This document shows, in pieces, positions 31,224 to 33,924 of a DNA stretch of 64,000 nt. Source of the DNA: Halohasta litchfieldiae (GTDB taxonomy: Archaea; Halobacteriota; Halobacteria; Halobacteriales; Haloferacaceae). The notes beneath the pieces are model-generated. The model saw only the letters and a program-made list of their open reading frames with translations, was not told the origin of the DNA and did not search any database. Within the stretch, counting starts at the first letter, position 1, and the number at the start of each line of letters is the position of its first letter. The position numbers and the translations under genes were made by a program. The DNA lies in NCBI RefSeq assembly GCF_002788215.1, contig NZ_CP024845.1:2852001-2916000 (forward strand), given 5' to 3'.

Positions 31224-31359
31224 ACCGTCACAGGCTCCTGTTTCGGTAATAAACGTACCGGAACAGTATGGTTCACCCACAGCGTATGACGGATCTATAG
31301 CCCCGAAAGCGGGCACTGAACCGTGAGAACCCACGTAGTTTTTAACACCACACGTTCAA

Positions 31360-31520
31360 CGCTCACCTACCAACGAACCCGCGGGTAACTGTCGGGTCGA
31401 CTGGTGTCTCCAGTCGGTCACGACACAGCGGGGCCATACCGACGCGCAGCACGCCGGGGCAGGTGGCCCCTACACGCGGTGAAGAGAGCAGTACGCTGTG
31501 AGCGATCTGCTCAGGATTTG
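31360..31520 (+). ncRNA. candidate structured RNA leader upstream of RNase J
   Basis: Three clear stem-loops occupy this gap. The first is a long stem: TGTCG (31390-31394) with CGACA (31421-31425), enclosing GACTGG/CCAGTC (31399-31404/31410-31415). The second is GGGGCCA (31430-31436) with TGGCCCC (31464-31470). The third is a perfectly nested GAGCAG/CTGCTC (31486-31491/31507-31512) around CGCT/AGCG. CCGCG (31379-31383) can pair with CGCGG (31475-31479) to close the first two. An AT-rich TATA-like element (tagtttttaac) lies just upstream at about 31336-31346. The RNase J start is at 31526. Function is unknown; autoregulation of RNase J is one possibility. Confidence 0.45.
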
Positions 31521-31525
31521 AAATT

Positions 31526-32878
31526 ATGGAAATCGAAATCGCAACAGTCGGCGGTTATGAGGAGGTCGGTCGCCAGATGACGGCCGTCCGTGCGGGCGAG
31601 GATGTCGTTATTTTCGATATGGGTCTCAACCTCTCGCAGGTGTTGATCCACGATGACATCCGGACCGAACAGATGCACAGTCTCGACCTGATCGACATGG
31701 GTGCGATCCCCGACGACCGCGTGATGAGCGAGCTCGAAGGCGACGTGAAAGCCATCGTCCCAACCCACGGTCACCTCGACCACATCGGGGCGATCTCGAA
31801 ACTCGCCCACCGATACAACGCACCCATCGTCGCCACGCCCTTTACCATCGAACTGGTCAAACAGGGAATCGAAAGCGAATCGAAGTTCTCGGTCGACAAC
31901 GACTTCGTCAAGATGGAGGCCGGCGAAACGATGTCTATCGGCACCAGCGGCCAGGTCGACCTCGAATTCGTCAACGTCACCCACTCGATCATTGACGCGA
32001 TCAATCCGGTCCTCCACACCCCAGAAGGGGCCATTGTCTACGGCCTCGACAAACGGATGGACCACACGCCGGTCATCGGCGACCCCATCGACATGGATCG
32101 GTTCCGTGAGATCGGTCGCTCGGACAACGGCGTCCTCGCGTATATTGAGGACTGCACCAACGCTGGCAAGAAGGGCCGCACGCCCTCCGAGTCGGTCGCC
32201 AAAGAGCATCTCCGGGATGTCATGCAGTCCATCGAGGATTACGATGGTGGGATCGTGGCGACCACGTTCTCAAGCCACATCGCCCGCGTGAAGTCACTCG
32301 TCGAATTTGCCGAGGACATGGGTCGACAGCCCGTTCTGCTCGGCCGCTCGATGGAGAAATATTCCGGTACTGCCGAACGCCTCGAATTCGTGGATTTCCC
32401 CGAGGATCTCGGCATGTACGGCCACCGGAAATCAGTCGACCGCACGTTCAAGCGGATCATGAAGGAGGGCAAGGAGAACTACCTCCCAATCGTCACCGGC
32501 CACCAGGGCGAGCCACGGGCGATGCTCACCCGGATGGGCCGCGGCGAGACCCCCTACGAACTCGACGAGGGCGACAAGGTGATCTTCTCGGCACGGGTGA
32601 TTCCAGAGCCGACAAACGAGGGCCAGCGCTACCAGTCCGAGCGACTCCTGAAGATGCAGGGCGCACGCATCTACGACGACATCCACGTCTCAGGGCACCT
32701 CCGCGAGGAGGGTCATTTCGAGATGCTGGAGGCCCTCCAGCCACAGAACATCATTCCGGCTCACCAGGATCTGAAAGGGTTTGCGCCCTACGTTGATCTC
32801 TGTGAGAGTCAGGGGTACGAGCTGGGCCGTGATCTGCACGTCACGCGCAACGGCAATCTCATTCAACTGGTGGAGTAA
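31526..32878 (+). CDS. rnj: ribonuclease J (archaeal metallo-beta-lactamase/beta-CASP type)
   Basis: This 450-residue enzyme has the metallo-beta-lactamase zinc motif HGHLDH at residues 81-86, the beta-CASP part with [11 protein letters not shown], and a C-terminal His in NIIPAHQDL and FHSxGH-like GHLRE. Archaeal RNase J is a 5'-3' exoribonuclease that degrades RNAs with 5' monophosphate. It is followed by idsA with a TAATG overlap, a pairing common in haloarchaea. A structured leader precedes it. Confidence 0.92.
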
Positions 32879-33924
32879 TGACGCAAAACGCCACCGAAAA
32901 GCGAGTCCTCGCGGCAATCGGCCAGCGCCGCGAACTCATCAACGACGGGATAGACGTCGACCTGCCACTGGCCGACCCCGAACGACTGTACGAGGCCACC
33001 CGATACATCCTAGAGGCTGGCGGCAAACGGCTCCGACCGACTGCGACGCTGCTGGTGGGTGAGGCGCTTGCCGACACCGACCCCAGCGAGCTCGACTACC
33101 GAGCGTTCCCCACAGTGACTGGTGGCGAGGTCGACCTGATGGCCGCAGCGGTCTCCATCGAAGTCATCCAGTCGTTCACGCTAATCCACGACGACATCAT
33201 GGACGACGACGACCTCCGGCGGGGTGTCAAGTCGGTCCACAACCAGTACGACACCTCAACTGCAATCTTGGCGGGCGACACGCTGTACTCCAAGGCCTTC
33301 GAAATCATGGCGGATGTCGGCGGCAAACCCGAAAACACGCTCGAAGCGATGCGCCTGCTGTCGTCGACCTGTACCAAGATCTGCGAGGGCCAGTCGCTGG
33401 ATGTCGCCTTCGAATCCCGCGACGATCTAACCCCAGAGGAGTATCTGGAGATGGTCGAACGCAAGACGGCAGTGCTCTACGGGGCGGCCGTGGCGATCCC
33501 GGCAGTGCTGTTGGATGCCGATCAAGAAATCGTCGACGCGATGTATCAGTACGGCATCGAGTCGGGCAAGGCGTTCCAGATTCAGGACGATGTCCTCGAT
33601 CTGACGGTGCCGAGCGAGGAACTCGGTAAACAGCGCGGCTCGGATCTCATCGAGAACAAGGAGACGCTGATTACGCTTCACGCCCGCCAACAGGGCGTCG
33701 ACGTCGATGGCCTGCTCAGCCAGTCGACCATCGAGTCGGTCACCGAAGACGAGATCGACGCAGCCGTCGAGAAGTTAGAAGACGCTGGCAGCATCGAGTA
33801 CGCCCGCGAGATGGCCGAAGACCTCACTGCACAGAGCAAAGAACGGCTCAACGCGCTCCCCGACAACGAGGCCAGTGACCTGCTTGCTGATCTCGCCGAC
33901 TACCTCATCTCTCGGGGCTACTGA
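32878..33924 (+). CDS. idsA: geranylgeranyl/farnesyl diphosphate synthase
   Basis: This 348-residue trans-prenyltransferase has the first Asp-rich motif DDIMDDDD at residues 105-112 and a second FQIQDDVLDL. It condenses isopentenyl diphosphate units to C15-C20 chains, the precursors of archaeal membrane lipids, carotenoids and menaquinone. The start overlaps the last base of the RNase J stop codon. A 6-bp hairpin (CGGTTT/AAACCG, 33940-33956) follows the gene and may help end the transcript. Confidence 0.93.
   Translation: MTQNATEKRVLAAIGQRRELINDGIDVDLPLADPERLYEATRYILEAGGKRLRPTATLLVGEALADTDPSELDYRAFPTVTGGEVDLMAAAVSIEVIQSFTLIHDDIMDDDDLRRGVKSVHNQYDTSTAILAGDTLYSKAFEIMADVGGKPENTLEAMRLLSSTCTKICEGQSLDVAFESRDDLTPEEYLEMVERKTAVLYGAAVAIPAVLLDADQEIVDAMYQYGIESGKAFQIQDDVLDLTVPSEELGKQRGSDLIENKETLITLHARQQGVDVDGLLSQSTIESVTEDEIDAAVEKLEDAGSIEYAREMAEDLTAQSKERLNALPDNEASDLLADLADYLISRGY

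Follow-up and report, generated by a model that had tools for sequence, protein, structure and literature searches.

RNase J of Halohasta litchfieldiae is encoded behind what is almost certainly a real, conserved RNA leader. Positions 31367-31525 of the window (the whole 64,000-nucleotide stretch of DNA analysed here, G000:C1:2852001-2916000; all features given below lie on its + strand) are predicted to fold into a three-way junction, made up of a closing helix, P1, and two hairpins, P2 and P3, followed by a further hairpin, P4, before the RNase J ATG. To judge from the sequences, a leader of this kind, referred to as type I, precedes RNase J in most of the haloarchaeal genomes examined. In Haloferax volcanii, 72% of the mRNAs are leaderless, and control through structured leaders was considered untypical of haloarchaea (PMC4983044). 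Haloarchaea are also without an RNA exosome, and H. volcanii depends on RNase J for viability (PMC10470531); on how the level of haloarchaeal RNase J is set, nothing was found in the accessible literature.

The RNase J locus, its promoter and the predicted leader fold

The gene behind the leader (31526..32878) was assigned as RNase J, a beta-CASP ribonuclease, through a match to TIGR00649 above cut-off and through PF22505. Its stop codon is overlapped by the start of a gene for a polyprenyl (isoprenyl) diphosphate synthase (32878..33924; PF00348, and NF040789 at 559.7 bits, just under the cut-off of 560). A same-strand homologue of this synthase is found 3' of RNase J in 75 of 80 loci, and the two genes are probably co-transcribed.

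The RNase J promoter has a TATA box (TTTTTAA, 31339..31345) 187 nt 5' of the ATG. From archaeal TATA spacing we infer an mRNA start at about 31366-31369, some 158 nt upstream of the ATG, and the promoter would thereby place the element in the 5' UTR of the ribonuclease gene. This layout is general to the 80 leader regions compared in this study (the Halohasta window and named haloarchaeal loci), all of which have a TATA box 153-315 nt (median 189) 5' of the ATG. The first-pass annotation had set its leader against a transcript starting just before the ATG; as far as can be read from the DNA, none of the 80 loci has a TATA-like sequence at the corresponding leaderless position (-40 to -18 relative to the ATG). 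By its position, the promoter fits transcription of the leader within the RNase J mRNA across these loci. A published start site for HVO_2724 was not found in the main texts of the articles.

Folded from the predicted start at 31367, the leader has a minimum free energy of -66.8 kcal/mol (z -2.5, with 3 of 200 shuffled sequences equally stable), and the interval 31360-31525, as first annotated, gives a z of -2.3. Folding from 31367 also brings out the closing helix P1, in which CCGCG (31379..31383) pairs with CGCGG (31475..31479), in agreement with the comparative consensus model. Three stem-loops had already been read from the Halohasta sequence, and these are recovered as P2 (31390..31425; -20.2 kcal/mol when folded alone, z -3.8), P3 (31430..31470, with outer strands 31430-31437 and 31463-31470; -22.0 kcal/mol, z -0.8, and as such not unusually stable) and P4 (31486..31512, GAGCAG..CUGCUC, 13 nt 5' of the RNase J ATG; -14.5 kcal/mol, z -3.2). 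The picture of separate hairpins is refined by P1, which joins P2 and P3 into a single domain. Leader stability is moderate across 79 loci (median z -1.5, with 31 values below -2 and six above 0), so that stability by itself is insufficient for the case.

Conservation and covariation of the type I leader

Most of the 80 leader regions share a series of landmarks between the TATA box and the ATG, namely CCCGCGG, the P2 hairpin, GCGGGG, CCGACGNGCUGYAAGACGCCGGGG and a second GCGG. The apical part of P3 (31439..31457, CCGACGCGCAGCACGCCGG) is near-invariant in the alignments; the consensus elsewhere, CCGACGNGCUGYAAGACGCCGG, is altered in Halohasta (CGCAGCAC) and in some Halorubrum, and a single strict protein site is therefore not obvious. 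When the window was compared with two Halohasta species, its closest relatives, identity amounted to 93 and 90% in the promoter and to 86 and 91% in P3, with 61 and 56% in P2, 70 and 59% in P4, and 78 and 73% at the third codon positions of RNase J. P2 nevertheless stays a hairpin throughout, its sequence and length varying while the pairing is kept. P4 is the symmetric hairpin that the first-pass annotation had singled out; it is unusually stable when folded alone and is the least conserved part of the leader, with a compensatory change to GCACAG..CUGUGC in two loci (L009 and L010). Two Halohasta-like MAG contigs (L011 and L012) have lost P4 and kept the junction, and in the Halorussus leaders (L014, L018, L021) the stretch that follows the junction, up to the start codon, holds a variable number of GGCGUGGCUnUGCCACGGAA-like repeated hairpins.

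The near-invariant apex bears on the question of whether the fold carries a signal at all. As a constitutive 5' stabiliser, it would merely protect the mRNA from 5'-to-3' decay: some 10 nt lie between the predicted 5' end and P1, and exonucleases of the RNase J kind attack from that end (PMC10303841). However, such protection would need neither a near-invariant apical sequence nor the confinement to RNase J genes described below, and we consider it very unlikely to be the whole role of the leader.

Covariation was assessed on alignments fitted to the structure, to which all of the following figures refer unless stated otherwise. Among 95 aligned sequences, 25 of the 28 pairs have changes on both sides, and two-sided changes fill 328 cells, compared to 123 in shuffles and 50-120 when the pairing partners were slid. 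Because kinship among the sequences inflates counts of this sort, a phylogeny-aware null was used, for which 300 alignments were simulated along the tree with the substitutions of each branch kept. The proportion of pairs formed (0.853 versus 0.525 in the null) and the covariation score (0.404 versus 0.158) were each reached by none of the 300 simulated alignments. Compensating base changes, suggested in the first-pass annotation as a check on the leader, are thus present: P2, which holds the strongest covariation of the element, and P3 each exceed the null on their own (0/300), while P1 passes it for pairing but covaries weakly, at a level reached by 28 of the 300 null alignments. Two to three single pairs attain E<=0.05 in the structure-fitted alignments, all of them inside the structure; structure-blind MAFFT alignments gave no individually significant pair.

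Dedication to RNase J and further leader types

A covariance model built from 14 sequences with Halohasta excluded (R1) returned the window element as its top match in the Halohasta genome, with 27.7 bits and E 0.019, the runner-up having E 2.6. The model obtained after one round of realignment, with the Halohasta window included (R2), was searched against 126 genomes of the host's order. All 62 matches at E<=0.001 immediately precede RNase J in the orientation of the gene, at a distance of 28-322 nt, and none was found away from RNase J among the 32 candidates scored per genome; at E<=0.05, 71 matches lie upstream of RNase J and six elsewhere. Since the search was filtered in this manner, rare copies elsewhere may be missed. 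What had been proposed from a single sequence as a structured leader of RNase J can now be described as covarying, conserved across haloarchaea and, by the 62 of 62 matches, dedicated to this gene. When genomes from across the phylum were sampled, matches were confined to the host's order, with none in other lineages or outside the Halobacteria. A test independent of the covariance models gave the exact apical consensus 19-mer in 99 of 293 genomes, the reversed-pattern control being found in none. Three small-genome lineages of the order (G043, G045, G058; L130, L131, L132) have RNase J without such a leader; there, only a short gap separates RNase J from the preceding gene.

A multi-gene regulon was considered and rejected. 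None of four extra exact copies of the 19-mer (L198, L199, L202, L203) is close to an RNase J gene; read by eye, those at L199 and L202 look like coding sequence and that at L198 seems to run across an ORF end, and all four resemble chance occurrences. Weak off-target covariance matches (E 0.003-0.09) were also taken as chance, L204, L205, L206 and L209 having neither RNase J nor the 19-mer.

A cis element in front of RNase J could still be read by some other factor, either a small molecule or ion, as in a riboswitch, or an RNA-binding protein. A three-way junction with a near-invariant apical loop resembles an aptamer, and the overlap of the prenyl synthase gene with RNase J makes a metabolic signal possible. 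LSm is a candidate protein reader, its gene being located divergently upstream of the Halohasta RNase J, an arrangement seen in 44 of the 80 loci. Riboswitches, however, usually precede several genes of a pathway, whereas this element was found before RNase J only, in 62 of 62 confident matches; second-copy RNase J genes at other places also have leaders, and no Rfam riboswitch matches the element. We regard a reader other than RNase J as rather unlikely.

Leaders of other types came to light at further RNase J genes, and families in which type I is missing have a different leader in its place. The main RNase J genes of nine additional genomes, chosen mainly for having no confident R2 match upstream, were read by eye, and each carries a leader that is type I-like or belongs to type II, the latter being closed by CCGAG..CUCGG near its ends. 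Type II leaders are found at L040, L043, L051, L054-L056, L058, L062, L068, L073, L078 and L082; with about -130 kcal/mol over 230 nt, those of L078 and L082 are very stable, and their closing helix overlaps a strong GGAGG Shine-Dalgarno sequence. Type III leaders (CCGAAA or CCUGAAAG..GAUCGG) are carried by 18 second copies of RNase J, out of 22 inspected (L123-L129, L135, L137-L146), the second copies of G000 (Halohasta), G011, G156 and G147 departing from the pattern. They are also present before the main RNase J of G156 and G147, and two more second-type copies (G332, G423) match them. The second RNase J of Halohasta (L122, G000:C1:2328387-2329727; 76% identical) does not exactly match type III; its promoter, TATTTA, is found some 160 nt upstream, and UAACCAACGCGCUGUUCCCG stands close to the predicted start. 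Type III leaders show a distance of 31-33 nt from the beginning of the TATA box to that of the CCGA strand, and 7-10 nt separate the end of the UCGG strand from the AUG. This spacing is fixed to both signals, as expected of a closed, cis-acting 5' UTR.

The type I element might instead be a separate trans-acting small RNA with a promoter of its own, located before RNase J by happenstance. A strong promoter and a compact fold would suit such an RNA, and non-coding transcripts are likely numerous in haloarchaea (PMC4983044). Several observations speak against it: no confident match was obtained anywhere but at RNase J, a further promoter immediately 5' of the ATG is missing, P4 sits next to the start codon, and the leaders of the second copies keep a short and fixed distance between their last helix and the AUG; a small RNA of this kind seems highly improbable to us.

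Types I, II and III are very dissimilar and are grouped here by their position before RNase J, which does not imply homology. The motif GACGYGCUGU, present in the type I apical loop, recurs in several type III leaders, and this may reflect shared recognition or chance. That the three types constitute one lineage-wide archaeal family sensing RNase J, the first archaeal RNase feedback leader, in which types I and III would share GACGYGCUGU recognition in different structural settings, is an idea we put forward only tentatively.

A possible role in the control of RNase J expression

From its genomic setting, the leader very likely acts in cis on RNase J expression, and probably lets the cell adjust the amount of RNase J. 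As to the trigger, we lean slightly towards RNase J itself, and thus towards autoregulation. It appears the likeliest candidate because this RNA is seen with RNase J genes only and the second copies have leaders of their own, and because autoregulation involving 5' UTRs is known for bacterial ribonucleases, RNase E and RNase Y controlling themselves partly in this way (PMC10303841). In the mechanism we propose, excess RNase J, alone or in its complex, would bind the conserved part of the leader, and would then lower translation or start the decay of its own mRNA, the leader acting in cis on the overlapping prenyl synthase gene as well as on RNase J; the fold, lying close to the 5' terminus, would in addition protect the mRNA against degradation in the 5'-to-3' direction. 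A leader that is conserved and specific to one gene, in organisms open to genetic work, offers a direct way to test whether RNA decay in archaea is under feedback control.

Searches of all Rfam families with cmscan, under strict and permissive settings, gave no relevant match to the leader region, rne5 and riboswitch aptamers included. The RNase E element of E. coli (rne5, Rfam RF00040) is alike in that the gene of a major RNase has a folded 5' UTR, but the enzyme, the domain of life and the fold are different, and the Halohasta element has no Rfam match. Leaders of RNase genes are known in bacteria, and the Halohasta fold and its haloarchaeal host group are not among them; no description of a haloarchaeal RNase J leader was found in the accessible literature, which was mostly without supplements and subscription papers and does not prove absence. 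In Bacillus subtilis, RNase Y likewise controls its own mRNA (rny), partly via a 164-nt 5' UTR, but does so through cleavage in the ORF and UTR with trimming by RNase J1, and reduced control remains without most of the UTR (PMC10303841). Closer to the host group, the halobacterial S15 leader is also a conserved, presumably protein-binding mRNA leader found by comparative genomics; it differs in that it precedes rpsO and not RNase J, and part of it resembles an rRNA junction (PMC7247131).
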